Assembly (NCBI GenBank): GCA_012522755.1
Contig: JAAYJV010000021.1
Span: 1-53,276 of the forward strand
Length of the DNA stretch: 53,276 nt
DNA from: Candidatus Hydrogenedens sp.
GTDB lineage: Bacteria > Hydrogenedentota > Hydrogenedentia > Hydrogenedentales > CAITNO01
Reading direction: 5' to 3'
Position 1 is the first letter of the stretch. Every line of letters begins with the position of its first letter. Both the position numbers and the translations under genes were made by a program. The notes beneath the pieces were generated by a model. It worked only from the letters and a program-made list of their open reading frames with translations, made no database searches and was not told the DNA's origin. This document shows, piece after piece, positions 14,247-51,368 of the stretch.

Positions 14247-14362
14247 AGGCGAATCCGACCATAAAGCATTTCCACAAGGGCAACTGTCAAGTATTCCTTG
14301 ACAGTTCAACGACCATGAAAGAAGGCAGCTCCACAGCGTCAGGGAAAAGGGGGATGGCATGA
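14243..14362 (+). CDS. 39-aa bridging ORF between hsdM and hsdS
   Basis: Begins at ATG 14243 overlapping the hsdM stop (ATGA) and ends at TGA 14360-14362 overlapping the hsdS start at 14359 (ATGA). It starts MKANPTIKHFHKGNCQV and has no recognised domain. The double overlap would let ribosomes travel from hsdM to hsdS without release. The ORF contains a 10-bp perfect hairpin. It may be a translational-coupling leader rather than a functional peptide. Confidence 0.45.
   Translation: MKANPTIKHFHKGNCQVFLDSSTTMKEGSSTASGKRGMA
14282..14306 (+). promoter_or_regulatory. Hairpin inside the hsdM-hsdS junction
   Basis: Perfect 10-bp arms AACTGTCAAG (14282-14291) and CTTGACAGTT (14297-14306) with a 5-nt TATTC loop. 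No U-run follows, so it is not an intrinsic terminator. It could tune mRNA stability or HsdS translation. Confidence 0.5.
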
Positions 14363-15687: not shown

Positions 15688-18684
15688 ATGGCTCGTCGAC
15701 ATACGGAACAGGCTTTTGAGCATGCTATTGAAGAACATCTGACTACGGTGGGGGGGTATGAGAAGGGCAGCGGGGAGGGTTATGATCCTGTGCGTGCTCT
15801 CTTTCCTGCGGAGGTGATGGGTTTTATCCGAGCGACACAGCCGAAGGAGTGGGAGGATCTTTATAATCTTCAGAAGGAGCGGGCAGAAGCAATTTTGCTG
15901 GAGGCTCTTTGCAGTGCCCTCAACTCGGAGAGTCGGGGTTGTCTGTATGTGCTGCGCCATGGCTTCAAATGCTACGGCAAGCTTTTTCGTGTGGCTTATT
16001 TTGCTCCTGCGAGCGGTATGAACCCGGCTACGCAAGCCCTTTATGAGGCGAACCGTCTGCAGGTTGTGCGCCAGCTCCGCTATTCGGAGAAGGATACTAA
16101 ATCACTGGATGTGACCCTGGTGCTGAACGGCATTCCCGTGGCTACGGCGGAGCTGAAAAACCCGATGACCGGGCAGACCTGGCGGAATGCGAAAAGACAG
16201 TATCAACAGGATCGGGACAGGCGGGAGCTTATTTTCCAGTTCAAGAAACGCAGCCTCGTCCATTTCGCCGTGGATACGGATGAGGTGTATATGACGACGC
16301 AGCTCGCGGGGAAGAGCACGTATTTCCTGCCCTTCAACCGGGGCAGCGAGGGCGGCGCCGGTAATCCTGAGAATCCGGAGGGCTGCAAGACGGCCTATCT
16401 CTGGGAGGAAATCCTGGAACGGCACAGTTTTCTGGACATCCTGGCGCGCTTCATCCACCTGCAGGAAGAGGAGAAAATGCAAGGCGGGAAGAAGGTCAGC
16501 CGGAAGACCATGATCTTCCCGCGCTATCATCAGCTGGACTGTGTGCGACGGCTTGTCGCCGATGCCCGTGAAGCAGGTGCCGGTAATAATTATCTGATCC
16601 AACATTCGGCGGGGAGCGGCAAATCCAATTCCATCGCCTGGCTGGCGCACCGTCTCGCAAGCCTTTACACGGAAGGGGATGAAAAGGTCTTCGATTCGAT
16701 CATTGTGGTCACGGACCGGATCGTTCTCGATCAGCAGCTCCAGAATACGATCTACCAGTTTGAACATAAGCGGGGTGTGGTCCGTAAGATTGATACTGAT
16801 TCGGCCCAGCTGGCGGAGGCCCTGGAGTCGGCTGCGCCGGTGATCATCACCACGCTCCAGAAGTTTCCTTTTGTTTCGGAGAAACTGGAACACCTGCCGA
16901 AGCGGCGTTATGCGGTCATCGTGGACGAGGCGCACAGCTCTCAGGGCGGTGAGACGGCTGCGGAACTCAAGGCCGTGCTGGCGGGGACAACGATACGGGA
17001 AGAGGCCCGGGCAAAGGCGGAAGCGGAAGGGTTTCCTGACTATCTGGAAGAAATCTATAAGACCATGGGCAGCCGCGGCCCCCAAAGCAATATCAGTTTT
17101 TTCGGCTTCACGGCTACGCCGAAATATCAGACCCTGGAAATCTTCGGCAAGGCCGGTGAGGACGGCAAGCCCCAGCCTTTCCACCTCTACAGCATGCGCC
17201 AGGCCATTGAGGAGGGCTTCATTCTTGATGTGCTCCAGAATTACACGACCTACAAGACCTATTACCGTCTGCAAAAATCGGTGATGACTGATCCCGAGGT
17301 GGAGAAGCGCCAGGCCGCCCGGGCACTGGCACGGTTCATGAGCCTGCACCCCCATAACATCGCCCAGAAAACAGAGGTCATGGTGGAGCATTTCAATCGG
17401 TTCACGAGGCATAAGATCGGGGGTAAGGCAAAGGCCATGGTGGTGAGTGCGAGCAGACTTCATGCGGTGCGATACAAACAGGCCTTCGACAAGTATATCG
17501 CCGAAAAAGGATATACAGGGATCAAAACACTCGTCGCCTTCTCCGGCACGGTGCAGGATCCGGATGTGCCTCATTTGGAGTATACGGAACCGGGGATGAA
17601 TCTCGGCATACGGGAAAAGGAGCTGCCGGAACGCTTCGCCACTGACGAATATCAGGTGTTGCTTGTGGCGGAGAAATACCAGACGGGATTCGACCAGCCC
17701 CTGCTCCATACCATGTATGTGGACAAACGCCTCGCCGGTATCCAGGCGGTGCAGACCCTCTCCCGACTGAACCGGACCCATGCGGGAAAGGAAGACTGCT
17801 TTGTTCTGGATTTCGTCAATGATCCGGAGGAGATTGCGGCGGCCTTCCAGCCTTATTATGAGCAGACCATGGTCGGTGAAAGGGCGGAGGCGAAACAGCT
17901 CTATGATCTTCAGGCGAAGCTGAGCGACTACCAGATTTACGACGAAAATGAAGTGGAGGAATTCTGCCAGATCTTTTTCAAGCCGAAGAAGAGGCAGACC
18001 TATCGGGATCATGGCTGGATGAACGCCTGCATCGATCCTGTCGTGAAGCGCTATGAGGTACTGGAGGAGGAAAAACAGGAGGAGTGCCGCAAGAGCCTCA
18101 TGGCCTATAAGAAACTTTATGCCTTTCTGTCGCAGGTGATCCCCTTTCAGGATTCTGATTTGGAGAAACTCTACGCCTTCGTCCGATTTCTGCTGACCAA
18201 ACTGCCGAGAGGGAAGGGCGGGCCGGGCTATGATTTCGAGGATGAGGTGACCTTGCAGTCATATCGCCTGCAGGAGAGCATGACAGGCCACATCGTACTG
18301 GAGACAGGAGGGGAGCACGGTGTGGACGGACCCACATCGGTGGGTACCGGCAAGGCGCATACGGACTTGATCGAGCTGTCCCAGCTTATCGAAATACTCA
18401 ATGAGCGCTTCGGGACCGAGTTCACATCGGCTGACCAGCTCTTTTTTGACTCCATACGGGAAGAGGCCATCGCCGACAGCGAATTGCAGGAGAAGGCAAA
18501 AGCCAATACGCTGGAGAACTTCGGATTTCCCTTCAATGAGAAACTGGAAGAGCTGTTTATCGATCGGGTGGATCAGAATGCGGTAATCACCGCCAGGTTT
18601 CTGGATGAGCCAGCCTTCCGCCAAGCCGTAAGCCAATACCTGCTCAAGGAAGTCTACCAAAAAATCCGTCAGGAAAGCCTGTAA
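15688..18684 (+). CDS. hsdR: Type I restriction endonuclease/translocase subunit
   Basis: 998 aa, typical HsdR. The N-terminal PD-(D/E)xK nuclease has Asp141 and the AELKN motif with Glu155 and Lys157. The superfamily-2 translocase follows: Walker A HSAGSGKS with Lys312, VVTDRIVLDQQL (motif Ia), VDEAHS with Asp413 (motif II), FFGFTATP (motif III) and the C-lobe TLSRLNRTHAGK (motif VI). All key residues are present, so restriction should be active. It starts one base after the hsdS stop codon. Confidence 0.95.
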   Translation: MARRHTEQAFEHAIEEHLTTVGGYEKGSGEGYDPVRALFPAEVMGFIRATQPKEWEDLYNLQKERAEAILLEALCSALNSESRGCLYVLRHGFKCYGKLFRVAYFAPASGMNPATQALYEANRLQVVRQLRYSEKDTKSLDVTLVLNGIPVATAELKNPMTGQTWRNAKRQYQQDRDRRELIFQFKKRSLVHFAVDTDEVYMTTQLAGKSTYFLPFNRGSEGGAGNPENPEGCKTAYLWEEILERHSFLDILARFIHLQEEEKMQGGKKVSRKTMIFPRYHQLDCVRRLVADAREAGAGNNYLIQHSAGSGKSNSIAWLAHRLASLYTEGDEKVFDSIIVVTDRIVLDQQLQNTIYQFEHKRGVVRKIDTDSAQLAEALESAAPVIITTLQKFPFVSEKLEHLPKRRYAVIVDEAHSSQGGETAAELKAVLAGTTIREEARAKAEAEGFPDYLEEIYKTMGSRGPQSNISFFGFTATPKYQTLEIFGKAGEDGKPQPFHLYSMRQAIEEGFILDVLQNYTTYKTYYRLQKSVMTDPEVEKRQAARALARFMSLHPHNIAQKTEVMVEHFNRFTRHKIGGKAKAMVVSASRLHAVRYKQAFDKYIAEKGYTGIKTLVAFSGTVQDPDVPHLEYTEPGMNLGIREKELPERFATDEYQVLLVAEKYQTGFDQPLLHTMYVDKRLAGIQAVQTLSRLNRTHAGKEDCFVLDFVNDPEEIAAAFQPYYEQTMVGERAEAKQLYDLQAKLSDYQIYDENEVEEFCQIFFKPKKRQTYRDHGWMNACIDPVVKRYEVLEEEKQEECRKSLMAYKKLYAFLSQVIPFQDSDLEKLYAFVRFLLTKLPRGKGGPGYDFEDEVTLQSYRLQESMTGHIVLETGGEHGVDGPTSVGTGKAHTDLIELSQLIEILNERFGTEFTSADQLFFDSIREEAIADSELQEKAKANTLENFGFPFNEKLEELFIDRVDQNAVITARFLDEPAFRQAVSQYLLKEVYQKIRQESL

Positions 18685-32160: not shown

Positions 32161-32739
32161 TCAAGGGTCTTTGCGGGGGGTGGACATGCGCAAAGGGTTC
32201 TGTATGCCGGTGACCGTGATGCTTCCGTCTTTGTGAACAATGACTTCCGTAGCGGGAAGGAGGTGGAGATCGCGCGGGGCGTAAGAGGACGTGAGGAAAT
32301 GAAGCTTTTGGTTTTCCGAAGCGAGGAGGTTGTTGTCCATGTGATGGGCATGCTCGTAGCGGCCTGCTATAAGCATGTCGGTGTGGCTGAGGATGGCCGG
32401 ATCCAGGGGCATCCGGTTCACCTCTTCGAGGGTGTAACCGGTAAAAATGACGATGGTGAGTGCCGCGGCATGAATTCGGGTGACCAGGCTGAGGAGGGCC
32501 TCAGGCTGCTGAAAAGGTTCGCCGCCGGAAAAGGAGACGCCCTCGATTTGCTTCTTGCGAGACAGGATTTCCCGGACGGTTTCTTCGACCGTTGTTTCGT
32601 AGCCGCCTTCGGGATCATGCGTCGCGGGATTGAAGCATCCCGGACAGTTCAGAGTACAGCCCTGGAGCCAAAGCACAGCTCTCAGTCCAGGGCCGTTGGC
32701 ACGGCTGGCGGGTTCAAAGGCATGTAAACGCAGATGCAT
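32161..32739 (-). CDS. NrdG-like radical SAM activating enzyme
   Basis: 192 aa. The radical SAM cluster motif C-x3-C-x2-C is Cys28-TLN-Cys32-PG-Cys35, preceded by ASRANGPGLRAVLWLQG as in anaerobic ribonucleotide-reductase activases. The SAM-binding FSGGEPFQQPEAL follows. Canonical NrdG sits beside nrdD, and none is visible here. It is instead the last gene of the minus-strand AAA/FGE island, 125 bp after the third FGE-fold gene. A modification role on a component of that system is possible. ATG 32739 is chosen for alignment with the family; the ribosome site is weak. Confidence 0.82.
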   Translation of the reverse strand: MHLRLHAFEPASRANGPGLRAVLWLQGCTLNCPGCFNPATHDPEGGYETTVEETVREILSRKKQIEGVSFSGGEPFQQPEALLSLVTRIHAAALTIVIFTGYTLEEVNRMPLDPAILSHTDMLIAGRYEHAHHMDNNLLASENQKLHFLTSSYAPRDLHLLPATEVIVHKDGSITVTGIQNPLRMSTPRKDP

Positions 32740-32864: not shown

Positions 32865-32991
32865 TCATAAGAGAGTCCTGGAACAACGAAAACCCTTGAG
32901 GCCGTTGCGATACGTCGGATCGCCGTCGTCGCGATCCGCGCACCGGAAATGGCCCGTATTACCGTCGTACCACGAACCGCCACGAAGCACC
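32865..32991 (-). other. DGR-type variable region 1 (3' end of FGE gene 1)
   Basis: Constant flank encodes RVLRGGSW and constant end encodes GFRCSRTLL-stop; the core at 32895-32969 is hypervariable relative to paralogues 2 and 3. Many variable codons end in C with changes at the first two bases (TAC/CGC/TAC, GAC/TAC/AAC, GAC/CCC/AAC, GGC/AGC/TAC). This is what adenine mutagenesis of AAC template codons yields. The homology continues past the stop (TTATGATTACCCTTT...CTTTTACCCTTT). Confidence 0.65.
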
Positions 32992-33698
32992 CGATATTCG
33001 TCAGTCACCGGCGCCGTTAAATCCCCCTGTTTATATCTTGTGTATGCGTCCTCATCGTACCAATCAGCGCACCATTCCGATATGTTCCCCGCCATCTGGT
33101 AGCAGCCCCAATAGCTGCACCCTTCCGGATAGGACCAGATCCCGCAGGTCCTCTCATTGCCCCTGCTAACACTGTTTCGGCACTTCTCCGTATCCCAATC
33201 CTTCCCCCACGGGTATTCACGACCGTCCACGCCACGCGCTCCCTTTTCCCACTCCAATTCCGTCGGCAATCTCAAGCCCGCCCACTCGCAATAGGCCTGC
33301 GCGCCAAACCACGATACCCGCACCACCGGATGGTCGGCTTTCCCGTCGTACGACTCGAATCCCCTTCCCGAGGAGCGAACAAAACAATCACTGTCAAGCA
33401 GTATCCACTTCTCCAATTCTGTCTTGTTCGGTCTACGCACAGTCAGGAAACGCGCATACTGCGCGTTCGTCACCGGATGCAAGGCCAGATAATAGGCCGG
33501 CAAATGCACCGGAAAAGGTCCGCAGCCTTCATCACTATACTCAGAGCCTCCCGCCAGAAACTCGCCCTCAGGAATCAACACCAGAAGCGTGCCGTCCGTC
33601 GGGTTCTCAATCAGCAGATCACGACCTTCCGCCCTCAGGAATGGCAAAGGCCGGTGATTTTCAATCGTCGGTGTCTGGCTACTAGTTTCTTCAGTCAT
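32865..33698 (-). CDS. FGE/SUMF1-fold protein 1 with hypervariable C-terminus
   Basis: 277 aa. ATG 33698 follows AAAGGAGAGG, 14 bp from the kinase-AAA gene. The FGE-sulfatase/C-type-lectin-like fold is shown by [74 protein letters not shown] and [14 protein letters not shown]. The two catalytic cysteines of true formylglycine-generating enzymes are absent: the equivalent residues are Asp and His. It is probably a ligand-binding module rather than an oxidase. Its last 40 residues differ sharply from the two paralogues only within a short core, the pattern of a DGR variable protein. No signal peptide is seen, so it is cytoplasmic. Confidence 0.88.
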
Positions 33699-33712
33699 AT
33701 CCTCTCCTTTTT

Positions 33713-36043
33713 TTATTGTGCATGCCTGGCATGGCGTTGCGCCCAATCCGTAAGCGCCCGGATTTCAGCCTGGCGCGATCTGGACAAAGGCGGCGCTTCC
33801 TTCAGTGCGATCAGCATATCCGTTGTTTCGAGCTCGCGATCAGCTTCGAAGGCGCGAAAGAGCCCGGAGATGACGGCCTGTTCGATTTCCGCGCCGGAGT
33901 ACCCTTCGGAAGCCTCGACAAGCGCCTGCAGATCGAAGTTTTCCGGGTCTCGTCCGCGTTTGGCCAGGTGGATACGCAGGATGGCTTCCCGTTCCGGCTT
34001 CGTGGGGAGTCCGACGAAGAAGATATCGTCGAAGCGGCCCTGGCGCAGAAATTCAGGCGGAATAGCGCTGAGGTCGTTGGCGGTGGCCACGACGAAGACC
34101 GGGCTGCGTTTGTCCTGCAGCCAGGTTAGGAAATGCCCGAATACGCGGGCCGCCACGCCACCTCCGCCCTGACCGCGTACGCCTGCAAAGCCTTTCTCGA
34201 CTTCATCAATCCAGAGGATGCAGGGGCTGACGGCCTCGGCGGTCTGGATGGCGCGTCGCAGATTGGCTTCCGAAGCGCCGACTATGGGACCAAAGATGCG
34301 GCCCACGTCAAGACGGAGCAGGGGCACGCTCCAGGCCCCGGCCAGAGCGCGTGCGGTCAGGCTCTTGCCGCAACCGGGGACACCCACGAGCAGCACTCCG
34401 CGGGGTTGCGGCAGACCGGCGTAACGCGCCACGCCCGCGAATACGGGCATCCGGCCTCTGAACCATTCGAGGAGCCGGGTCAGGCCACCCACATCCTTAA
34501 ATGATTCGGAAGTGTGGTAATACTCGAGGATGCCGGACTTGCGGATCACCTGCGTCTTCTCCTCAACCACCATACGGACCGCCTCGATTCCGAGACCGCC
34601 GTGGCGCAAGACCGCCGCCCGAATGGCACGTTCGGCCTCGTTTAACGTCATGCCGGCCGTTGCGCGAAGCAAGGCGGTGCGGGTCTCTTCGTTTTTGTCC
34701 ACGCTCAGGCCCGCTTGCGCGCATTCTTCGGCGAGGCGCTCGATCAGCGGGTCGAGATGCTGGCGGTCCGGCAGCTGGAACACGGCCAGCGCGACCTGTT
34801 TTTCAAGTTCCTCGGGCACTTTGTAGAAGGGGGAGAGGAACAGGACCGATTTGCGCGTCATGCGGACAGCCCGTGCTGCGTCACGCACCAAACGGGTTGT
34901 CACGGGCGTGAAGTGGTGGTGCAGGTCGAGAAACAGGTAGATGGCGTCCTCCGGATTTTCGATCACGTGGACCAGGGCTCTCGTGGGATCTTCCATCGAG
35001 TCCGGCCGGACCAGTTTGTCCTCCTCATCCCGCAGGCCGCGCGAGGCACTCCACAAATACAAGCGGCGCGGTCGGCCCCGGTCTTCGGAAAGCCGCCGGG
35101 CAATGTCTCGCACCGAGGCCATCACGCGGTCCTCCTCGAAGGAAAGTACGCACACAATCGGAAAACTGGCGCGAATCAGAATCTCGAGCCTGCTCTCGTC
35201 GTCGTCTGCCATCCGCGTACGGCGTGCGACGACCTCAAGGTCGCGGCTCAGCTCATCGGCGGTCTGGTAACGGCGCTCCGGGTCCTTGTTGAGCATCTTG
35301 CGCAAGACGCGCACCATACGGTTGTCCACCTGTTTCTCGCGCAACGGTTCCTCGTCATACCGCGCCGCCATGATCTTCTGGATGATTTCGCCGACCTCGC
35401 CGGTGAAGGGGGGCGACCCGGTCACCAACTCGTACAGGATCACGCCGAGCGCCCACAGATCAGCATTCGTTCCCGAGGCACCTTGGAGCGCTTCAGGAGC
35501 CATGTAGGCGACCGTGCCGATCCGGGTGCTGGCTTTGTCACTGATTCGGGCGAGCATCCGTGCCACGCCGAAATCCAGCAGCTTGGGAGTGTTGTCCGAC
35601 GTGATGAAGATGTTTTCCGGCTTGACGTCACGGTGAAACACGTGGGCTGTATGGGCATAGGCCAGGGCCTCGGATATCAGCCCCACATGCCGCACCGCTT
35701 CCGGCAAGGCGAGAGACTTCTGCTCACGCAGGCGGCTGCGCAGCGAGGTGCCTTCGAGATACTCCATGACCAGGAATGAAATGCCTTCGTGCTGCTCCAG
35801 CGCGAACACCTGCATAATGTTCGGGTGGATCAGCCGCCGGGTCATTTGGAATTCTTTATCGAGTTCCGCCAGTCCTTCCGGGTCCTGCCGGTGAGGGAAT
35901 CCCAGTGCCACTATAGCGTCAGGGAGCGTGCCGCCACGGTTGCGCGCCCGGTAGACGCTCTTGAACGCACCAGATCCAAGATATGCCTCCAGAACATAGG
36001 GACCAAATCGCTGCCCGGTTTTGTAAGGCCCGCCTGATGGCAT
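33713..36043 (-). CDS. Ser/Thr-kinase-like domain fused to Ycf46-type AAA ATPase
   Basis: 776 aa. ATG 36043 follows GAAAGGAC. Residues ~10-280 are a PknB-type kinase fold: [10 protein letters not shown] at 22-31, HRDVKPEN at 137-144, DFG at 157-159, and YMAPEAL. The beta-3 lysine is missing: VALG with Gly48 replaces the usual VAxK, so ATP transfer may be weak, rewired or lost. Residues ~300-776 resemble Ycf46: a degenerate N-terminal ATPase half, then Walker A GVPGCGKS with Lys560, Walker B CILWIDE with Asp613, and the [16 protein letters not shown] segment carrying the arginine finger. It lies between FGE genes 2 and 1. It probably senses or remodels FGE-protein complexes; this is inference. 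Confidence 0.88.
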
Positions 36044-36217
36044 AATCTTGTCCTTTCGTAATGAACTGTCACCCTTCAGCGGTCTGGTCTCGCTGACAGC
36101 TGACTGCTGATTGCTTCCCAAAAAACAAAGAAAGGCGCGCCTGCGTCGCGACCAGAGAAGGAGTAATCTCTCTGGATTCTCCCACAAAAGGTAAAAGAGA
36201 CAAAGTGCAAAGGGTAA

Positions 36218-36346
36218 TCATAAGAGAGACCTGGAACAACGAAAGCCGTTGTTTCCGAAGCGAAACGCAGAATCGAAGCTGGGGTAGCGGTGCGTGCACC
36301 GGAAGAGCTTCGCATCGCTTTTGCGCCACGAACCGCCACGAAGCAC
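36218..36346 (-). other. DGR-type variable region 2 (3' end of FGE gene 2)
   Basis: Constant flank RVLRGGSW; variable core at 36248-36325 encoding RKSDAKL, then constant FRC, then [16 protein letters not shown]; constant GFRCSRSLL-stop. The DNA past the stop (TTATGATTACCCTTTGCAC...CTCTTTTACC) is shared with regions 1 and 3. Constant flanks with a scrambled core are not expected from ordinary paralogue drift. Confidence 0.65.
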
Positions 36347-37072
36347 CCGATCGCCGCCAGTCTCGGGTGTCGTCAAATCTCCCTGCTTATACCTTTCGTA
36401 TGCATCCTCGTCGTACCAATCTGCGCACCATTCATCTACGTTCCCAGCCATCTGGTAGCAGCCCCAATAGCTGCACCCTTCCGCATAGGACCAGATCCCG
36501 CATGTTCTCTCACTGCTCTTGTTTGTGTCATTTCGGCACTTTCCCCGGTCCCAGTCATTCCCCCACGGGTACTCACGACCATCCACGCCCCGCGCCCCTT
36601 TTTCCCACTCCAATTCCGTAGGCAATCTCAAGCCCGCCCACTCGCAATAGGCCCGGGCATCCTCCCAGCTCACGCACACCACAGGATGGTCCGCCATCTC
36701 CGGTGGAAAGCTTGCGCCCCGCCACACAGGAGTATCAAACTTGAATTGCGCTTTATCCGGCGGACGGTGCCCTGTCTCATCCACAAAGCGCTTGTACTGC
36801 GCATTCGTCACCGGATGCAAGGCCAGGTAATAGGCCGGCAAATGCACCGGAAAAGGTCCGCCGCCTTCATCATCCTTAGAGCCTCCCGCCAGAAACTCGC
36901 CCTCAGGAATCAACACCAAAAGCGTGCCATCCTTGGGGTTCTCGATCAGCCATTCGGGCATCAAAAAATTCCGGGTGGACAATGGCTCGACATGCGGATA
37001 ATCGTCCGGCGGCCGCCCTGGTACTGTCCAGGCCACAGCTTTCTTTCCTGATTGCTCATGCGCTTCAGTCAT
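36218..37072 (-). CDS. FGE/SUMF1-fold protein 2 with hypervariable C-terminus
   Basis: 284 aa. ATG 37072 follows GGAGGAG. It carries the same fold blocks as paralogue 1 ([64 protein letters not shown]). A different N-terminal extension begins [15 protein letters not shown], and a decayed duplicate of that extension lies at 44250-44393. Catalytic FGE cysteines are replaced by Lys and Leu. The variable core is one codon longer than in the other two copies. The gene starts 21 bp after the Ycf46-B stop. Confidence 0.88.
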
Positions 37073-37093: not shown

Positions 37094-38745
<1,652 letters not shown>

Positions 38746-38749
<4 letters not shown>

Positions 38750-38949
38750 CGTCCGGCCTCCAGGTCGCGCTCGACTTCGGACTCAGCTTCGGTCTCGTAA
38801 TACTCGGGTTTGAGCTCCCGTTCGCCGATAGGGATGCCCAGCCGTTTTTCAAGCCCGTGTGTGAACTCGATGCAGGTCTTACCCTCTGCGCCAAGCACCT
38901 CGATGCGCTGCGTACCGTCTTTGTGAATGGTAACTTGCATTTTCTTCAT
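38746..38949 (-). CDS. DUF2997-family small protein
   Basis: 67 aa. ATG 38949 follows AAAGGAG; longer upstream reading in this frame lacks a site and crosses the Ycf35 gene. The sequence MKKMQVTIHKDGTQRIEV..GKTCIEFTHGLEKRLG matches the pattern of DUF2997, a small family found next to Ycf35/DUF1257 genes. Function is unknown. ATGA overlap with Ycf46-B indicates tight coupling. Cytoplasmic, acidic C-terminus. Confidence 0.82.
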
Positions 38950-38971
38950 AATTCGATTCTCCTTTCCTGGT

Positions 38972-39364
38972 TCAACCGCGCTCGGACAACAGCAGCACGA
39001 TATCGCCGTTTTCGAGCACTTCTTCCTTTTCGACGACGAGATACTGCTCGCGTGCCTGATCCTTGACAAGATTGTAGGCATACCGCCGGTTGACATCCTG
39101 TACGAAGGTCTCCTGGCGAATCGGCGAATTGCCCTCTACACCCCACCAGTCCGCAACGATCTCGAATTGTTCAGCTTTGCGCTGAAATCCGATGTCGTAC
39201 TGGCAGCCGGTGTTCACCACCACTTCGGCACGTTCCTGGTTGCCGGAATAACCCCGCACCAGAAGGTTCTGGCCTTCCTGAAACTGGCAGTGCAGATCAC
39301 GGAGTGCCTGCACCAGATGTTCCTGTTCGCGAATCCGGGTCTGAATGTGTAGAAAATGAGACAT
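38972..39364 (-). CDS. Ycf35/DUF1257-family protein
   Basis: 130 aa. ATG 39364 follows AAAGGAG. The start MSHFLHIQTRI and the blocks VRGYSGNQERAEVVV, YDIGFQRKAEQFEIVADWWG and VNRRYAYNLVKDQ are the signature of Ycf35, a protein of cyanobacteria and algal plastids with unknown function. It is placed between two Ycf46-type ATPase genes, 22 bp before the DUF2997 gene. This conserved neighbourhood suggests one complex or pathway. Confidence 0.9.
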   Translation of the reverse strand: MSHFLHIQTRIREQEHLVQALRDLHCQFQEGQNLLVRGYSGNQERAEVVVNTGCQYDIGFQRKAEQFEIVADWWGVEGNSPIRQETFVQDVNRRYAYNLVKDQAREQYLVVEKEEVLENGDIVLLLSERG

Positions 39365-39393: not shown

Positions 39394-40926
39394 TTATTCT
39401 GTTTCAATGATGCGTCCACGCGTACCCGCTACCGTCTGTTCTCCAGTCGAGGCCGGGAATGCCCGGCCTTCAGTTTTCCATTTGCGCAGGCTTTCGATGA
39501 TCTCCGTATGCGATTTGCTGAGGGGTACGACCTCACGTATGGCGGACAGCAAGTCCTCCTCTTCGATCTCACGATGGCCGTCTGCGAAAGCCGTGAACTG
39601 AGCCTCGCGCACAATGCGCTCGATCTCGCGCCCCACGAATCCCCGGCTTCGGGCAATGAGTTCCTCAAATCGGAATTTCCGTTCCGGGAAAGTCTCGCCG
39701 GCACACTTCAGATGGATCTTGAGAATATCGCGCCGCTCCGTCTCATTGGGCAAATCGAGGAAGAAGGTGCGGTCGAAGCGGCCCATCAGTTCTGCGGGCA
39801 GTGCCTCCACGTCGTTGGCCGTCGCGAGTACGAAGACCGGTGTCCGATGCTCCTGCATCCAGGTCAGGAACCCGCCGAAGACCCGTGTGGCGGCCCCGCT
39901 GTTAATGGAGCCCGCCCCGACCCCGGCAAAGGCCTTTTCCATCTCGTCAATCCACAGGATGCACGGGCTGACCGTCTCGGCCAGCATGATGGCCTTTTGC
40001 ATGTGTTTTTCTGACTCGCCCAACAGTGATTCGAAGACCGCGCCGATATCCAGACGCAGCAGCGGCATTTTCCATATCCCGGAAACCATCCTGGCCGACA
40101 GACTCTTGCCCGTACCGGAGATCCCGATCAAGGCCACGCCGCGCGGAAAGGGCAGACCCGCCAGCCGGGCCTCTTCAGAGAAAGCCGTCTCGCGTTTTTT
40201 CAGCCATTCTTTCAGCAGGTCCAGTCCGCCCACTCCTGCTTCGCCTTCTTCGGCGGGCCAGAATTCGAGTGCCCCGCTCTCGCGCACCACCTCGCGTTTG
40301 GCCCACATCACCATCTCGATGCCGCGCTCGTCAAACTTGTCAAAACGCGCCCACACCCGCGCAAAGGCCTGCCGCGCCTGGTTGGTGGTCAGGCCCAGAG
40401 CCGAGGAAATCAGTTTTGCCCGAACCGACTGACTTGGCAGCCCGGTTCGATCCAGACCGCTGGTCTGGTCCGCGAAGAGCCGGGTCAGTTCCTCCGTATT
40501 CGGCAGCGGCACGTGGAGTACCAGTACATCGTCCTTCAGTTCGGCTGGCAAATTAAGCATTGGTGTAATAAACACCAGGAACTGGTTCTTTCTGCGCAAT
40601 TCCGGCGCCATATTGCGAAGTTTCCGCGTGACCAGTCCCTTCCTGGCGGCCCACGTGTGGTGAAAATCCTTGAGGATCATCACCGTTGCCGGTGGCAGAT
40701 GCTCAGAGAGGGCCGGCAGCAGCGTATCGGCCGTCAGATCCTTGTCAAAAACCTGCTGGCCCGCACGGACGCAGCTCAGGCCATCCGCAATGTCCCACGT
40801 GTAGATGCCAAGCTGCCCGGGCAGCTTCTCAATCGTCCGGATCACACGATCTTCTTCATAGGTGATCAGGTTAAGCATCGACACACCAGCGCCAAAGAGC
40901 TCGCTGAGTTCTTCTTTAAGATTCAT
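39394..40926 (-). CDS. Ycf46-type AAA ATPase A
   Basis: 510 aa. AGAGGA lies upstream of ATG 40926. It has the same bipartite plan as ATPase B. The N-terminal half (GVSMLNLITYEEDRVIRTIE, VMILKDFHHTW) lacks Walker motifs. The C-terminal half has Walker A GISGTGKS with Lys274, LDIGAVFESLLGESEKHMQK, Walker B CILWIDEMEKAF with Asp327-Glu328, and ELMGRFDRTFFLDLP. It differs enough from B (for example GISGTGKS against GVPGCGKS) to be an old paralogue. Three related ATPases in one operon suggest a mixed AAA ring. Confidence 0.92.
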   Translation of the reverse strand: MNLKEELSELFGAGVSMLNLITYEEDRVIRTIEKLPGQLGIYTWDIADGLSCVRAGQQVFDKDLTADTLLPALSEHLPPATVMILKDFHHTWAARKGLVTRKLRNMAPELRRKNQFLVFITPMLNLPAELKDDVLVLHVPLPNTEELTRLFADQTSGLDRTGLPSQSVRAKLISSALGLTTNQARQAFARVWARFDKFDERGIEMVMWAKREVVRESGALEFWPAEEGEAGVGGLDLLKEWLKKRETAFSEEARLAGLPFPRGVALIGISGTGKSLSARMVSGIWKMPLLRLDIGAVFESLLGESEKHMQKAIMLAETVSPCILWIDEMEKAFAGVGAGSINSGAATRVFGGFLTWMQEHRTPVFVLATANDVEALPAELMGRFDRTFFLDLPNETERRDILKIHLKCAGETFPERKFRFEELIARSRGFVGREIERIVREAQFTAFADGHREIEEEDLLSAIREVVPLSKSHTEIIESLRKWKTEGRAFPASTGEQTVAGTRGRIIETE

Positions 40927-41040: not shown

Positions 41041-41170
41041 TCATAAAAGACTCCTGGAACAACGAAAGCCGCAGCCGTCGTAGCGATGAGCCGGATCGTA
41101 GTTGTTGCGTGCTGCGCACCGGAAGGTGACCAAATAGGAGTTGTACCACGAACCGCCACGAAGCACCAGC
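41041..41170 (-). other. DGR-type variable region 3 (3' end of FGE gene 3)
   Basis: Flank LVLRGGSW, variable core 41071-41145 (YNSYLVT, constant [18 protein letters not shown]), constant GFRCSRSLL-stop. Adjacent AAC AAC codons (NN) remain in the core, as in DGR templates. Shared DNA continues ~60 bp beyond the stop (TTACCCTTTGCC..CTCTTTTACCCTTTATGCGCGAGCGAA). Confidence 0.65.
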
Positions 41171-41832
41171 CTGTTGCCAGTCCTCGGCGCAGTCAAATCT
41201 CCCTGCTTATATCTTTCGTATGCATCCTCATCGTAGCAATCTGCGCACCATTCCCAGGCGTTCCCCGCCATCTGGTAGCAGCCCCAGAGACTGCACCCTT
41301 CCGGATAGGACCAGATCCCGCATGTTGTCTCACCGCCCGTGTTTGCATCATTTCGACACTTCTCCGGGTCCCAGGCATTCCCCCACGGATATTCACGGCC
41401 ATCCACGCCCCGCGCCCCCTTTTCCCATTCCAATTCCGTCGGCAATCTCAAGCCTGACCATTCACAATAGGCCTGTGCATCCTTCCAGCTCACGCACACC
41501 ACAGGATGGTCCGATTTCTCCGGTGGAAAACTTGCGCCTTGCCACACCGGTGTTCCCCAATCGGCTTTATCCGGCGAAGGGTGGTCCGTCGCGTCCACAA
41601 AGCGTTTGTACTGCGCATTCGTCACCGGATGCAAGGCCAGGTAATAGGCCGGTATGCGCACAGGGAAAAGCTCGCCGCCCTCATTTCTCCCCGGGCCTCC
41701 CGCCAGAAACTCGCCCTCCGGAATCAACACCAAAAGCGTACCATCCGTCGAATTCTGTATAAGCACATCGTGCCGGCCTTCAGGGAAAGGCTCGATGGGC
41801 TGGTGATTCTCAATTGCCAGTGTTCGGCTCAT
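41041..41832 (-). CDS. FGE/SUMF1-fold protein 3 with hypervariable C-terminus
   Basis: 263 aa. ATG 41832 is preferred: GGAG lies 9 bases upstream, and the next residues [16 protein letters not shown] align with the start of paralogue 1. The frame is open to an ATG at 41964, but that would overlap the IS630 remnant. It carries the same FGE blocks ([55 protein letters not shown]). Catalytic cysteines are replaced by Asn and Thr. The start overlaps the stop of the upstream small ORF as ATGA. Confidence 0.88.
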
Positions 41833-41975
41833 AACGCTGTCTCCATTCCCGTGGCGGCCAGCAGCGCAATCTTTGCGCGAACCACCACCCGCATCGGTGT
41901 CATAGGGCTCTTGGACCATTTTTTCAGTGTGGTACGTTCCCGAGCATTCACCACAATCTGACATGAATTTCTCAT
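41829..41975 (-). pseudogene. IS630-family transposase N-terminal remnant
   Basis: 48 codons from ATG 41975 (AGGAGA ~9 bases upstream). The peptide [19 protein letters not shown], then [17 protein letters not shown] matches the N-terminal helix-turn-helix of IS630/Tc1-type transposases and then ends. The TGA overlaps the FGE-3 start (ATGA), so whatever its origin it now acts as a coupled leader between the Hsp70 and FGE-3 genes. No catalytic DDE part or inverted repeats are seen. Confidence 0.65.
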
Positions 41976-42046: not shown

Positions 42047-43669
42047 CTACAGTCTCACCACGGGGTGATTTTCCATGATATTCCTCCCTTTCAGGTTATC
42101 CAACACTGTTACGAGCAGTTGCCGGCGGGCATCCACCTGGAAGAAACACAAAAAACGCTGTTGGTCCCGTGCCATATTGATCGGCGGGTCGGCGATAATG
42201 AATGTCGGGTTTTCATCATTCAGGCAGATGTACTCGTACTCGGAATCGACCCGGTTGCTGAGGCGGCCGTCGGCGCCATAAATAGAGGTGGTCAGGCTCC
42301 GGCGCTTCATCCGGGACACCTCGAAAATCTTCAAGCCGATGCGCGTCATACCGTTGTAGGCGCCTTTGGCACAGATCCGGACCGCATCGCGTTCGGTAGG
42401 GTACTCGGTTCCCATTTTGAACAGTGGCTTGAACACGGAAGTCCTTTTGTCTGGCCGCAGGCCCCTGATGGCGTAGTCGTGCTGCAAGATCGGTTCGACA
42501 ATGCCCCGACAGGCCCCGCGCACCACCGTGTCAAAGGGATGGTCATAGGCGACCCGCCCGCCGAACTGGTCTTCCAGCATTTTTCGGACGCAGGGCACCA
42601 GGGCGGTTCCTCCCGTGACCAGCACGCGCGTCACGTCATCTCGCCGCATTCCCACCTTCACGGCGGCGTTTTCAAGAGCCTGTTCCAGCACTTCTCGAGC
42701 TTGCCGGGCAAAGCTCATATTCAAAAGGATACAGCCCAGACAGGCCAGCCCGGCTTCTGGATGCTGTCCGGTCTGGCCGCATTCGCAGGCTGCGCAACTC
42801 CGGACATACGAGGTCTGGTGCACCCGGGGCGTTCGGCCCGTCTGCCGCACGATGGTCACGGAGGCGTCTGTTTCCATGGGGTCGGACAAGCGTTTCTTCG
42901 CCTCCTCGACCTGCCGCAGGATAAAGGCGTCGAGTTTGCGCCGCGTGTCGGCGTCCAGGTCATGACGCCGGCAAAAATCGTCCGCCAGGTGCAGGTCGAT
43001 GTCCATGCCACCCAAATCACGGCCGGCCTGGCCCAGTTGAATCGCCTTGCGTTCCGCGCCCGGTGACATATCCAAGCGCACCGCCGACACATCGGTCGTA
43101 CCGCCGCCAAAGTCGAACACCACGAACCGTTCATTCTGGCCGGCCGCACCGTGGTAGCCGAACACACAGGCCGTCGGTTCATCCAGGAGGCGCACGCGTT
43201 GGATTTGCAATCCTTCCGCAACCCGCAGCAGCCAGTCCTGATAGTCCTCGAAGGCCTCAATGGGTTTTGTAAAGGTGAATTCGTCCTGGAAGGAGATGCG
43301 GTCTGTCGCGTAATTCAGCAGCAACCGCAGAAAATCCTCGCCAGCTTCCGCCGCACACTTGAAGCCTTTCGCCGTCTTCTTGCGTCTGGTGTTGCCTTGG
43401 ACAATCGTGCGCTTCATCCAGCGGAAGGTATCGGGATGTTCAGCCAATCCACGTGACAACACCTGGTCGCCAATCAAGATTTCGCTTTCCGAATAGTGGA
43501 TAAGCGACGGAGTCACCTGAACGGACTGTTCCGGTGCGCCCGGCTCGAAGCGGTAGCGCATCTCGGTTGTAATGCCGGGAATCTCAATGGACTCCGGCTG
43601 TTGCAGCGTTTCGCTGAAGCGCGCAAGCAGGGTGTTGCAGGTCCCGAAATCAACGGCCACTTTCCCCAT
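42047..43669 (-). CDS. Hsp70/DnaK-like ATPase with inserted cysteine cluster
   Basis: 540 aa. ATG 43669 follows GAAGGAGGAG and lies inside the GrpE-like gene (20-bp overlap). The actin-fold ATPase motifs are phosphate-1 VAVDFGTCNTLLARF, VRLLDEPTACVFGY, phosphate-2 VVFDFGGGTTDVSAV, and adenosine-site VLVTGGTALVPCVRKML. A CAACEC..CLGC cluster (Cys292, 295, 297, 310, 313) is inserted in the second ATPase lobe where DnaK has none; it looks like a metal site. The canonical beta-sandwich substrate domain and lid are not evident. The last ~130 residues are unlike DnaK. It is a dedicated chaperone-like switch, not the housekeeping DnaK. Confidence 0.88.
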   Translation of the reverse strand: MGKVAVDFGTCNTLLARFSETLQQPESIEIPGITTEMRYRFEPGAPEQSVQVTPSLIHYSESEILIGDQVLSRGLAEHPDTFRWMKRTIVQGNTRRKKTAKGFKCAAEAGEDFLRLLLNYATDRISFQDEFTFTKPIEAFEDYQDWLLRVAEGLQIQRVRLLDEPTACVFGYHGAAGQNERFVVFDFGGGTTDVSAVRLDMSPGAERKAIQLGQAGRDLGGMDIDLHLADDFCRRHDLDADTRRKLDAFILRQVEEAKKRLSDPMETDASVTIVRQTGRTPRVHQTSYVRSCAACECGQTGQHPEAGLACLGCILLNMSFARQAREVLEQALENAAVKVGMRRDDVTRVLVTGGTALVPCVRKMLEDQFGGRVAYDHPFDTVVRGACRGIVEPILQHDYAIRGLRPDKRTSVFKPLFKMGTEYPTERDAVRICAKGAYNGMTRIGLKIFEVSRMKRRSLTTSIYGADGRLSNRVDSEYEYICLNDENPTFIIADPPINMARDQQRFLCFFQVDARRQLLVTVLDNLKGRNIMENHPVVRL

Positions 43670-44222
43670 TAACGATCTCCTCCTTCGCGGTCGCAGCACT
43701 GTCCGCAGTGGTTACCATCGCTTTCAACAGCACCTTCGCGCCCATCCGGTACCCCGGCATCTGCACAACTACCGGCGTCCCCGTACGGACCGTCGAGCCG
43801 CTCATGCGCTGGTGCAGCGCAATGTCAAAGTCCGCGGCGTCGCCCGTTGCACCCACACGTTCGAGCCCCTTCCGCGCCAGTTCGCGTTCCAATGTGTCAA
43901 ACAACTGAACGAAATCCGCCGCTTCGGCTGTCTGGCCTTTACGCGCCAACTCAACCAGTGTCGCCAGGTTTGACAGCGGACCCGCAAGCCGTTTGAACAA
44001 CCCTTCCAGTTCGTTTTGCCCGGCTGTCTCTTTCGCCTTCCCTTTGCTTATCTCGAGCTGGGCATACTCCGCCTGCATCGCGGTAATCCGGTCATCCCGC
44101 TCGCGCAGATCCATTTCGAGCTCGGCTATTCGTGCCCGATGGCCCGCTTCGTCTTCCGGCGCTTCCGCCTCGCGCCCGAACAACGCCGCCCACCATCGCC
44201 ACCAGTGTCCTTTCTTTTTCAT
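43650..44222 (-). CDS. GrpE-like nucleotide-exchange factor
   Basis: 190 aa. ATG 44222 follows CAGGAGG. It has a Trp-rich start (KKKGHWWRWWAALF) and a coiled coil about residues 25-60. The C-terminal beta-domain resembles GrpE: GDAADFDIALHQRM, then GTPVVVQMPGYRMGAKVLLK, equivalent to the DFDPxxHEAV..VVEVxxxGYxxxGRVLRPA pattern. It overlaps the Hsp70-like gene and should be that protein's private exchange factor. Housekeeping grpE would normally sit with dnaK, dnaJ or hrcA, which are absent here. Confidence 0.8.
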   Translation of the reverse strand: MKKKGHWWRWWAALFGREAEAPEDEAGHRARIAELEMDLRERDDRITAMQAEYAQLEISKGKAKETAGQNELEGLFKRLAGPLSNLATLVELARKGQTAEAADFVQLFDTLERELARKGLERVGATGDAADFDIALHQRMSGSTVRTGTPVVVQMPGYRMGAKVLLKAMVTTADSAATAKEEIVNGESGR

Positions 44223-44396: not shown

Positions 44397-46049
44397 TCAA
44401 CTCTTTCCCGCATCTCCAAATTCGACTGGCGAATCCCCGGATTCGATCTCAACATCATCAAACACAGGTGTCGTTACCCAGTACGTCATGATTCCTTTCA
44501 GAACGCGCCGCACTGCGCTGTAGCGGCCGATCCATGCCTCGTGCGGCGCAGATTGAAGTGCCTCCAAATCTGCTGGAGTCGCCTGGTCGGGCCAGAATTC
44601 AAGCAAAGCATGCGAGGTGACCAGCTCTTCCAGCCAGAAGTTATCATCTTCGACCTTCTCCAGCGAAGGATGCGGACACAGACCCGTCGCATGTCCGGCA
44701 AGTCGGATAAGCCAGTGCGGGCTGCTGCGGATGGCCTCCGCCGTGTCTGCGCCAGTTCCACCCTGACGCGCCAACTCCGCAACGATTGAAACGCCTTCCA
44801 TAGGCGTCACCCTTCGAAGTTGCTCCGCTGAACCCGAGACTGGCCTGGCCAGCCATTGCTCAAACAGTGGGCTCGTGGCATCGCCCTTCCTGACATCCCG
44901 CAGTTTCCGCCCCTGGCTGTCTTGCAAAAGTTGCTTGTACAGCTTGCGCTGGTCGTCTTTGTCCGGCTCCCAGCCCGATGCGCGAAAATGCGCAAGCAAC
45001 CGGAACCCATATTTCAACGGAAGTTGCAGGAAGGCCTCGAACAGACGCGGCCAATCCTTGTGTCGGAGGCCCGACTCGATGGCCAGTGTGATCTCGTCGT
45101 CGCTGCATTCGCAAAGCGGTTTGTGCGAACCGAAAAAGCCCAGGCAGCGCCGGTCGCCTGAGCGGACAATCTCCATCACCTGCGCCTGAACCGTTGCATC
45201 GGCCCGTTCGTACGCCAGCCGGAGATTCTGAAACTCGTAATCCTCCTTGAAATAGGCGTCCAACTGCCGCGTCACAAACAAAAAAAGGCTGACTTCTTCC
45301 GGATCCGATGGACGGTAGCCGGCCTCGATACATATCGTTGCAGCCAGGCCTGCGGGATCGCGCGTCGCCAACCGGCAAAGGGCCGCCCGAAGCTTGGGGG
45401 CGTCGAGCGCACACAGCATCGCGTGGGCTCGTTGGGCCAAATCGGGATCGCTATCCCGGGTGGCGATGCTATACAAAAAGAGGATGGCTTCTTCCGGGTC
45501 CGATGGACGGTAGCCGGCCTCGATGCATATCTTTGCAGCCAGGCCTGCGGGCTCCTGCGTCGCCAACCGGCAAAGGGCCGCCTGCGCCTCGGGATTGCCG
45601 AGTGTGCGCAGTGTCACATACGCACGTTGCACCAAAAGAGGATCGGTATCCCGTGCTGCGGCGACAAAGGCCTCCAAAACGGACTCGTCCCCAATCACGG
45701 AGCTCCCCTGGTTCACCTTCAGCGCAGACAACACCCGCACCTCGACCGGTTGCATCGCAACATACCCGCACTCCTCGATGATCCGCTCCAAGACTTCGTC
45801 GCGGCTCTTAGCCCATATCGCACACAAGGCGTCCACCGCGCCAGTATCCCGAAGGTCACGTAAGGCGCATTCCGCTGTCTCCCGTACCTGTGCGTCCCGG
45901 TCGCTCAACGCTTCCAGGAGATAGGGTACTGCGTCAGCGTCGGCGACCTGCGCAAAATGGGCACAGGCCCGGCGCCGACGTCCGGTTCCCAACAGCGGGG
46001 CATGGCTGTGAAGCCGTTTCGCCCAATACTGAACTTCAGTCTGAACCAT
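44397..46049 (-). CDS. HEAT-repeat protein
   Basis: 550 aa. ATG 46049 follows CAAGGAG. N-terminal HEAT/Armadillo-like helices (VPYLLEALSDRDAQVRETAE, CALRDLRDTGAVDALC) are followed by two near-identical internal repeats of ~75 residues. Each repeat carries ALCRLAT..PAGLAA.ICIEAG then YRPSDPEE. A conserved FVTRQLDAYFKEDYEFQNLR block follows. The C-terminal ~180 residues are a separate helical region. No signal peptide is present. HEAT solenoids are scaffolds; this is the first gene of the minus-strand island and a likely recruiter for the Hsp70/AAA components. Confidence 0.85.
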   Translation of the reverse strand: MVQTEVQYWAKRLHSHAPLLGTGRRRRACAHFAQVADADAVPYLLEALSDRDAQVRETAECALRDLRDTGAVDALCAIWAKSRDEVLERIIEECGYVAMQPVEVRVLSALKVNQGSSVIGDESVLEAFVAAARDTDPLLVQRAYVTLRTLGNPEAQAALCRLATQEPAGLAAKICIEAGYRPSDPEEAILFLYSIATRDSDPDLAQRAHAMLCALDAPKLRAALCRLATRDPAGLAATICIEAGYRPSDPEEVSLFLFVTRQLDAYFKEDYEFQNLRLAYERADATVQAQVMEIVRSGDRRCLGFFGSHKPLCECSDDEITLAIESGLRHKDWPRLFEAFLQLPLKYGFRLLAHFRASGWEPDKDDQRKLYKQLLQDSQGRKLRDVRKGDATSPLFEQWLARPVSGSAEQLRRVTPMEGVSIVAELARQGGTGADTAEAIRSSPHWLIRLAGHATGLCPHPSLEKVEDDNFWLEELVTSHALLEFWPDQATPADLEALQSAPHEAWIGRYSAVRRVLKGIMTYWVTTPVFDDVEIESGDSPVEFGDAGKS

Positions 46050-49130: not shown

Positions 49131-51368
49131 TCAGAAATCATGGTCTTTTAAAACTTTTGCCGCACCCTCGTGTCCCTGCTCCGCTGCTTTAGACAGCCAT
49201 TGTTTAGCCTCAGACTCATCTTTCTCGGCGCCACAGCCAACTGCATAACACAGTCCAATACTGTACTGTGCCTCAGCGAGTCCTTGCTCAGCTGCTTTAC
49301 GATACCATTTGTATACTTCGGACTCATCTTTCTCCACGCCAATGCCTAATTCATAACAATGACCAAGATTGTACTGTGCCCCAGCGAGTCCTTGCTCAGC
49401 TGCTTTACGATACCATTTGTATGCTTCGGACTCATCTTTCTCAACGCCAATACCTAATTCATAATAACAACCAAGATTACTCTGCGCTAGAGCCTTTCCT
49501 TGTTGAGCTGCTTTACGCCACCATTTGAAGGCTTCGGATTCATCTTTTTCCACGCCAACGCCACTTGCATAACACTGACCAAGATGCTGTTGGGCCTCAG
49601 CGAATCCTTGTTGAGCTGCTTTACGATACCATTTGACGGCCTCGGATTCATCTTTCTCAACGCCAATGCCACTTGCATAACACTGACCAAGAAGCTGCTG
49701 TGCCTCAGCATATTCTTGTTGAGCTGCTTTACAGCACCATTTGAAAACTTCGGATTCATCTTTTTCCACGCCAACGCCACTTGCATAACCCTGAGCAAGC
49801 TTGTGTTGTGCCGCATCCTCGTGTCCCTGCTCCGCTGCTTTAGCCAGCCATTTTTTAGCCTCAGATTCATCTTTCCCCACGCCAAAGCCATTTGCATAAC
49901 ACTGACCAAGATTGTACTGTGCCTCAGCCTCTCCTTGTTGAGCTGCTTTACGAAACCATTTGAAAGCCTCAGATACATCTATTTCAACGCCAATACCACT
50001 GGCGCAACAATTACCAAGCCAATTTTGTGCTGTAGCATTTCCTTGTTCAGCTGCTTTAAACCACCATTTGACAGCCTCGGATTCATCTTTCTCAACACCA
50101 AGACCAAATGCATAACCCTGAGCAAGCTTGTGTTGTGCCTCAGCGAATCCTTGTTGAGCTGCTTTACGAAACCATTTGAAAGCCTCGGATTCATCTTTCT
50201 TAACGCCAATGCCTAATTCATAACAATGACCAAGATTGTACTGTGCCGCTGCATCTCCTTGTTGAGCTGCTTTACGATACCATTTGTATGCTTCGGACTC
50301 ATCTTTCTCCACGCCAATACCTAATTCATAACAACAACCAAGAGCATTCTGCGCGTCAGTATCTCCTTGTTGAGCGGCTTTACGATACCATTTGACAGCC
50401 TCAGATTCATCTTGCTGAACGCCGATGCCTAATTCATAACACAGTCCAAGATTGTACTGTGCCTCAGCCTCTCCTTGCTCAGCGGCTTTACGAAACCATT
50501 TGATAGCCTCAGATTTATCTTTCTCTACGCCGATGCCTAAATTATAATAATAACCAACTTTACTCTGCGCTAGAGCCTCTCCTTGTTGAGCTGCTTTACG
50601 AAACCATTTGAAGGCCTCGGACTCATTTTTCTCCACGCCAATGCCACTTGCATAACCGTGACCAAGATTGTACTGTGCCTCAGCACGTCCTTGCTCAGCG
50701 GCTTTACGCCACCATTTGAAAGCCTCGAATTCATCTCTCTCTACGCCGATGCCTAAATTATAATAATAACCAAGATTACTCTGCGCTATAACATCTCCTT
50801 GTTGAGCGGCTTTATGCCACCATTTGAACGCTTCGGATTCGTCTTTCTCAACACCCATGCCACATGCATAACACTGACCAAGATGCTGCTGTGCCTCAGC
50901 CTCTCCTTGCTCAGCTGCTTTACGAAACCATTTGAAGGCCTCGGACTCATCTTTCTTAACGCCAATGCAAAATGCATAACAACAACCAAGCGTACTCCGG
51001 GCTAGAGCGTGTCCTTGTTCAGCGGCTTTACGATACCATTTGAAAGCCTCGGACTCATCTTGCTGAACGCCGACGCCAAATTCATGACACTGACCAAGAT
51101 TGTACTGTGCCTCAGCCTCTCCTTGCTTAGCGGCTTTACGAAACCATTTGAAGGCCTGAAATACATCTTTCTCCACGCCGACGCCATTTGCATAACATTG
51201 ACCAAGATTATTTTGCGCTAGAGCATGTCCTTGTATAGCGGCTTTACGATACCAGATGACGGCTTTGCTCATATCCTTTTTGACATCCAGACCATACTCA
51301 TAATGTTGCGCTAGTCTATACTGTGCCTCAGCCTTTCCTTGTTCAGCGCGTTTTTTGTTATTGGTCAT
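49131..51368 (-). CDS. Sel1-repeat (SLR) protein, about 20 repeats
   Basis: 745 aa. GAGGAGTG lies upstream of ATG 51368. Almost the whole protein is 36-residue Sel1-like repeats of the form A..NLG.CY..GIGVEKDESEA, then KWYRKAAEQG. The DNA is a 108-bp tandem repeat over ~2.2 kb. No signal peptide or membrane helix is seen, so it is cytoplasmic unless exported by another route. SLR solenoids bind partner proteins in signalling and in host or bacterial interactions. The high identity between repeats suggests recent expansion and possible length variation by slippage. Confidence 0.93.
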   Translation of the reverse strand: MTNNKKRAEQGKAEAQYRLAQHYEYGLDVKKDMSKAVIWYRKAAIQGHALAQNNLGQCYANGVGVEKDVFQAFKWFRKAAKQGEAEAQYNLGQCHEFGVGVQQDESEAFKWYRKAAEQGHALARSTLGCCYAFCIGVKKDESEAFKWFRKAAEQGEAEAQQHLGQCYACGMGVEKDESEAFKWWHKAAQQGDVIAQSNLGYYYNLGIGVERDEFEAFKWWRKAAEQGRAEAQYNLGHGYASGIGVEKNESEAFKWFRKAAQQGEALAQSKVGYYYNLGIGVEKDKSEAIKWFRKAAEQGEAEAQYNLGLCYELGIGVQQDESEAVKWYRKAAQQGDTDAQNALGCCYELGIGVEKDESEAYKWYRKAAQQGDAAAQYNLGHCYELGIGVKKDESEAFKWFRKAAQQGFAEAQHKLAQGYAFGLGVEKDESEAVKWWFKAAEQGNATAQNWLGNCCASGIGVEIDVSEAFKWFRKAAQQGEAEAQYNLGQCYANGFGVGKDESEAKKWLAKAAEQGHEDAAQHKLAQGYASGVGVEKDESEVFKWCCKAAQQEYAEAQQLLGQCYASGIGVEKDESEAVKWYRKAAQQGFAEAQQHLGQCYASGVGVEKDESEAFKWWRKAAQQGKALAQSNLGCYYELGIGVEKDESEAYKWYRKAAEQGLAGAQYNLGHCYELGIGVEKDESEVYKWYRKAAEQGLAEAQYSIGLCYAVGCGAEKDESEAKQWLSKAAEQGHEGAAKVLKDHDF

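Follow-up and report, generated by a model that had tools for sequence, protein, structure and literature searches.

A lidless Hsp70-family protein with a four-cysteine insertion, paired with a GrpE-like protein in an AAA-ATPase/FGE gene island of Candidatus Hydrogenedens

The 53,276 nt of Candidatus Hydrogenedens sp. DNA analysed here (contig JAAYJV010000021.1, referred to below as the window) contain an Hsp70-like gene that overlaps a GrpE-like gene and encodes a cluster of cysteines in its ATPase lobe. This raises the question of what work such a pair performs and what the cysteines contribute to it. The pairing of the two genes, the conservation of four of the cysteines, the ATPase residues, the predicted beta-domain, the site of the insertion and the gene neighbourhood were all computed here.

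Identification of the gene pair

A first-pass annotation had placed a dedicated pair of overlapping Hsp70-like and GrpE-like genes at this position, and each of these points was borne out. The features of the pair are as follows.

42050..43669 (stop codon 42047-42049), minus strand: Hsp70-like gene, 540 aa (Pfam HSP70 E 2e-19; DnaK profile match; fold match over the whole model)
43650..44222, minus strand: GrpE-like nucleotide exchange factor, 190 aa (Pfam GrpE E 4e-10; kept in relatives)
42503..43669, minus strand: nucleotide-binding (ATPase) domain, residues 1-389 (hhalign E 7e-31 to the DnaK nucleotide-binding domain; catalytic positions kept)
42731..42796, minus strand: cysteine insertion, residues 292-313, CxxC-x14-CLGC plus the private C297 (end of subdomain IIB; four cysteines in 7 of 7 sequences)
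42050..42487, minus strand: predicted substrate-binding beta-domain, residues ~395-540, without helical lid (profile test; AF2; VIA-align to DnaK 2-503)

The likeliest start of the Hsp70-like gene was ATG 43669, preferred over an upstream GTG at 43699, and with this start the overlap of the two genes is 20 bp (43650-43669). The GrpE-like ORF scored above the curated Pfam cut-off (40.1 versus 25.8 bits), with residues 19-173 aligned to positions 7-164 of the 165 in the profile. The source genome assembly (4.0 Mb, 95 % complete, 199 contigs) has a housekeeping grpE-dnaK-dnaJ operon elsewhere, on contig C8, and a second full-length DnaK on contig C173. Only two GrpE genes were present, one in the window and one in the C8 operon, and neither of the J-domain matches of the genome was located within the window. 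The window pair is thus additional to the housekeeping set. GrpE also adjoined Hsp70 in every relative locus seen (8 of 8), and the status of the window genes as a dedicated pair is well supported.

Two other assignments of the Hsp70 were rejected. The best NCBIfam matches were to HscA models, but at 72 bits versus cut-offs of 620-709. A viral origin was also discounted, with no relative in viral contigs and only ~24 %-identity matches from phage records. Plasmid and phage Hsp70 matches outside the family covered ~80 % of the query at 23-27 % identity.

Domain architecture of the Hsp70

Residues D8, T11, K70, E171, D194 and T199 have catalytic roles in DnaK. All were kept in the window Hsp70, as D7, T10, K86, E164, D186 and T191, and K86, the equivalent of the catalytic lysine K70, was invariant. 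An actin-like nucleotide-binding domain with the Hsp70 catalytic residues is therefore present, and ATP hydrolysis would be expected of the protein.

The first-pass annotation had also held that the canonical substrate domain was lacking, and this was overturned. A profile built solely from the family's C-terminal 146 residues, and free of DnaK sequences, matched the DnaK profile precisely over the substrate beta-domain (template columns 427-522), with a score of 32.1 compared to a maximum of 23.8 in 60 column shuffles and 14.2 for the reversed profile. An AF2 model based on 63 sequences (run 2; mean pLDDT 84, pTM 0.80), for which the deeper alignment came from Hsp70s in viral contigs with DnaK rows included, predicted an all-beta C-terminal part with pLDDT mostly 82-95 and lower values at residues 401-410 (68) and 451-480 (about 50). 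As this run was helped by the DnaK rows, the independent profile test matters. Solved structures matching the whole model were those of DnaK and BiP, several of them lid-truncated (best Foldseek E 5e-28), and VIA-align superposed residues 1-540 of the model on DnaK 2-503 (Z 37, rmsd 5, 451 residues). On the profile test, the model and the fold match, the reading of an Hsp70 with no substrate domain was rejected. The chain stops at the end of the beta-domain, and so only the alpha-helical lid is missing. The window protein is a lidless Hsp70-family protein and not a canonical DnaK; lid truncation is a known state.

The protein shares with DnaK the ATPase fold, the catalytic residues, the substrate beta-domain and a GrpE-family partner encoded alongside. 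It differs in overall sequence (~20-24 % identity), in the four-cysteine insertion in subdomain IIB, in the missing helical lid and in the interdomain linker, which reads ILQHD in the window Hsp70 and VLLLD in DnaK. It also differs in setting, since the window pair has no nearby J-domain gene and sits in an AAA/FGE island. Specialisation and low similarity to DnaK (tblastn matches of ~26 %) are features shared with HscC and other divergent bacterial Hsp70s.

Gene island and its distribution

Six distinct relatives of the window Hsp70, at 52-62 % identity and together with it spanning three phyla, formed the alignment set. One came from a Hydrogenedentota MAG (L017, whose protein is that of L008 in a genome from the same order as the window), two from genomes in the same family as the window (L009 and the partial L010), two from Acidobacteria MAGs (L015 and L016) and one from a Kiritimatiellae MAG (L018, partial). 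In the window, the pair is accompanied by the following genes.

44397..46049, minus strand: HEAT-repeat protein, the conserved first gene of the cluster (Pfam HEAT_2; relatives in L015, L016, L017, L018, L054 and L055)
41041..41964, minus strand: FGE protein 1 (C-type-lectin-fold type) with variable C-terminus, VR-like 41044-41160 (Pfam FGE-sulfatase E 3e-52; VR comparison)
39394..40926, minus strand: AAA ATPase 1 (Pfam AAA; 68-70 % identical in L015, L016 and L017)
38972..39364, minus strand: DUF1257 protein, Ycf35 type (Pfam DUF1257 E 3e-23; relatives)
38746..39096, minus strand: DUF2997 protein (Pfam DUF2997 E 6e-12)
37094..38749, minus strand: AAA ATPase 2 (Pfam AAA E 2e-32; 74 % identical in L017)
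36218..37072, minus strand: FGE protein 2 with variable C-terminus, VR-like 36221-36340 (Pfam FGE-sulfatase; VR comparison)
33713..36187, minus strand: protein kinase fused to AAA ATPase (Pfam Pkinase E 3e-50, AAA E 2e-28)
32865..33746, minus strand: FGE protein 3 with variable C-terminus, VR-like 32868-32984 (Pfam FGE-sulfatase; VR comparison)
32161..32739, minus strand: radical SAM protein (Pfam Fer4_12 and Radical_SAM; also in the L015 and L055 clusters)

The order of the cluster in the window and in the related loci was:

Window: HEAT, GrpE, Hsp70, FGE, AAA, DUF1257, DUF2997, AAA, FGE, radical SAM
L015: HEAT, GrpE, Hsp70, AAA1, DUF1257, FGE, radical SAM
L016: HEAT, FGE, GrpE, Hsp70, AAA1, DUF1257, FGE
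L017: four FGE, HEAT, GrpE, Hsp70, FGE, AAA1, two DUF1257, two FGE, DUF2997, AAA2, FGE
L018: two FGE, HEAT, GrpE, Hsp70
L053: two FGE, GrpE, Hsp70, FGE
L054: HEAT, GrpE, Hsp70
L055: FGE, radical SAM, HEAT, GrpE, Hsp70
Pseudanabaena plasmid: GrpE, Hsp70, DUF1257, ATPase, DUF2997, AAA, HEAT/WD40

The distribution was patchy, with the cluster in at least 4 of 68 genomes from the same phylum as the window and in at least 1 of 396 and at least 2 of 387 genomes in two other phylum-wide samples; these counts are lower bounds because three candidates were scored per genome. The occurrence of close relatives in three phyla suggests horizontal transfer. Three smaller observations concern individual genes of the island. 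The AAA half and the N-terminal part of the kinase-AAA fusion (33713-36187) resemble the two stand-alone AAA proteins. The radical SAM (Fer4_12) protein at 32161-32739 and the nearby small DUF2997 protein could be a peptide-modifying pair. The two DUF1257 genes of L017 (16022-16861) are tandem and diverged, being 78 % and 38 % identical to that of the window.

Variable ends of the FGE genes

A diversity-generating retroelement (DGR) was found beside the related cluster of L016, with a reverse transcriptase ORF at 1268-2353, a template at 894-1025 and a variable copy at 127-246. The reverse transcriptase has the motif IGNLTSQ, as in DGRs, and the variable copy differs from the template at 18 of 31 adenines and at none of 76 other bases. 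When the 3' ends of the three window FGE genes were compared using this template, which is that of L016 and not the window's own, they varied at 25 of 30 template-A columns versus 18 of 72 others. This variation, mainly at template-A columns, makes the window FGE genes look like former or present DGR targets. No DGR reverse transcriptase was found in the window's genome assembly (95 % complete, 199 contigs), in which the sole RVT_1 match (L019 1303-3258, contig C79) lies in a 651-aa ORF resembling an RT-Cas1 (CRISPR) fusion. The retroelement of the window may have been lost or may be unassembled.

The variable FGE proteins provide one of the alternatives to the function proposed below, namely that the pair serves as a private chaperone for fast-changing lectin-fold variants and maintains their solubility, the cysteine knob being incidental. 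FGE genes lie beside the pair in 7 of 9 loci, the window included, their ends show DGR-type variation and the Hsp70 has a predicted substrate beta-domain. However, L054 has HEAT-GrpE-Hsp70 without a nearby FGE relative, and the Pseudanabaena locus shows none. A private chaperone is not known as a need of most DGR targets, and the lid, which is an aid in holding unfolded clients, is missing. A folding helper of this kind is considered unlikely.

Conservation and location of the cysteine insertion

With translation from ATG 43669, the window Hsp70 has cysteines at 292, 295, 297, 310 and 313, exactly the positions given in the first-pass annotation, which had read them as a CxxCxC..CxxC pattern and proposed conservation in homologues as a check. 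Four of these (C292, C295, C310 and C313) occurred in all 7 of 7 sequences aligned, the window protein and the six relatives, while position 297 read C, P, -, N, D, P and N across the same sequences. C297 is private to the window protein, so the five-cysteine motif was rejected and the motif is CxxC..CxxC, or CxxC-x(12-34)-CLGC when written out. The pairs are separated by 12-14 residues, or by 34 in L018, and this spacer is otherwise unconserved. Apart from the four cysteines, invariance within residues 287-317 was confined to L315 and to the L and G that separate C310 from C313. Invariant cysteines around a variable, unconserved spacer look like metal ligands in a loop. C387 and C508 were also kept, as single cysteines, in every sequence covering them. 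In the Kiritimatiellae Hsp70 (L018 3530-4861), the 34-residue spacer holds an additional CxxC, perhaps a second knuckle.

The insertion was absent from DnaK, from the relative on the Pseudanabaena galeata plasmid (31 % identity) and from a second distant relative (32 % identity) in the phylum-wide sample around L018. As it was not seen in these distant members of the family or in the DnaK-type Hsp70s aligned, it is a clade-specific addition. Both distant relatives share the GrpE-Hsp70 arrangement, which indicates that the insertion is not a general requirement for pairing with GrpE.

The first-pass annotation was right to place the cysteines in the ATPase lobe, and the site can be given more precisely. 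When 58 further Hsp70s, for the most part DnaK, were included in the alignment, the insertion followed the PKHLNV strand and preceded the LTRAKFE helix, which puts it at the end of subdomain IIB. The beta-sheet directly before this point and the helices of IIB are contact sites of exchange factors, including GrpE (PMC2940730, PMC10803776). A second look at the IIB/IIA region was taken with an AF2 run on five close sequences only (run 1; mean pLDDT 46). The two runs, with their different alignments, agreed on the local order of a strand to residue 289, a short helix at 293-296, a strand at 308-310 and a helix at 311-317, with local pLDDT about 71-86 in both. The second CxxC pair is at the start of this last predicted helix. 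A CxxC turn followed by a CxxC at a helix start is a usual zinc arrangement. With all four invariant cysteines arranged as CxxC pairs, and the second pair opening a predicted helix, metal dependence is plausible; most likely the four hold a structural zinc.

A redox switch is another alternative. Reduced cysteines would hold zinc, and oxidised cysteines would release it and alter Hsp70 activity or GrpE binding, as do the zinc cysteines in Hsp33 and Ruc. The four cysteines in a chaperone context are reminiscent of these zinc-dependent redox chaperones, and Ruc (Rv0991c) is a redox-regulated chaperone that works with DnaK and has four zinc cysteines of zinc-ribbon type (PMC7448276). The four invariant cysteines of the window Hsp70 and its relatives would be compatible with such a switch. 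However, Hsp33 and Ruc are not Hsp70s, the window cysteines being an insertion in an ATPase domain, and C297, which gives the window protein its Hsp33-like CxC, was not conserved, so that the CxC..CxxC of Hsp33 type is not a feature of the family. Among the genes of the conserved cluster, none of thioredoxin-like or oxidative-stress type was recognised, and a structural role is by far the commoner one for zinc-cysteine sites. A redox switch would be possible but has nothing here in its favour, and it is considered improbable. That the four cysteines hold an Fe-S cluster, in connection with the island's radical SAM protein, is very unlikely, since the recurrence of the radical SAM gene in the cluster, the ability of four cysteines to ligate an Fe-S cluster and the best NCBIfam matches to HscA models are set against two CxxC pairs, with the second at a helix start, that are typical of zinc and an HscA score (72 bits) far below the cut-offs of 620-709.

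Proposed function of the pair

The reading favoured here, and held to be somewhat probable, is that the pair is the dedicated, ATP-driven Hsp70/GrpE machine of the AAA-ATPase/FGE-lectin/DUF1257 island, lidless and with a structural zinc knuckle on IIB for private contact. With an intact ATPase domain and a beta-domain lacking the lid, segments of partner proteins would be bound loosely and, in the absence of a lid, should be exchanged quickly. A single structural zinc would most likely be held by the four conserved cysteines, giving a small knuckle on IIB, the region gripped by exchange factors in known complexes. The likely task of this knuckle would be a private contact, either with the GrpE of the pair or with a further protein of the island (HEAT or AAA), and such a contact would keep the pair apart from the housekeeping DnaK and GrpE. 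The machine would load, hold or remodel a complex in which AAA ATPases are joined by the variable FGE recognition proteins and possibly the HEAT protein, and the island itself may have a recognition or conflict role.

A more far-reaching version is speculative and thought to be distinctly improbable. Here the knuckle would be a metal, redox or docking switch, and the dedicated Hsp70/GrpE cycle would gate an AAA-driven, immune-like system with recognition proteins that are, or once were, diversified by a retroelement, the Hsp70 cycle acting as the threshold device of a bacterial conflict system.

Comparison with known systems

Several described systems share part of this gene content. The GTPase-centric predicted conflict systems of GAP1-N2 type include HSP70 and its GrpE (Kaur et al. 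2020, PMC7159879), and in other systems FGS/FGE domains are tied to DGRs (PMC7159879). The theme of HSP70 with GrpE is common to the GAP1-N2 systems and the window island, but the core of the latter comprises AAA ATPases, DUF1257, DUF2997, HEAT and FGE proteins, and no GTPase was recognised by Pfam among the window genes scanned. Combinations of FGE/CLec DGR targets and ATPases have also been interpreted as putative conflict systems (PMC7159879; Dore et al. 2024, PMC10907252). The island resembles these DGR-diversified systems in combining FGE/CLec-type variable proteins with ATPases, whereas PMC10907252 mentions no Hsp70, chaperone or GrpE. DUF2997 and DUF1257 are also encoded together in the cyanobacterial DUF2997-DUF1257 (ycf35)-fed7 cluster, which as described has no Hsp70/GrpE or FGE (PMC4284462).

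A search of the open-access literature for an Hsp70 with a zinc or CxxC insertion found nothing relevant and, as far as could be found, a conserved four-cysteine insertion in the subdomain with which an Hsp70 binds exchange factors is undescribed. An Hsp70 of this kind would lend itself to asking how a single Hsp70 becomes wired to a single private partner. The neighbourhood links Hsp70/GrpE to DUF1257 and DUF2997, AAA ATPases and DGR-type lectin-fold proteins, and provides a testable context for unexplained families.

Two other parts of the window were recorded. A complete-looking type I restriction-modification set (HsdM, HsdS and HsdR) occupies 12051-18684. A Sel1-repeat protein at 49131-51368 has ~20 near-regular repeats of 36 aa (108 bp), with one spacing of 219 instead of 216.
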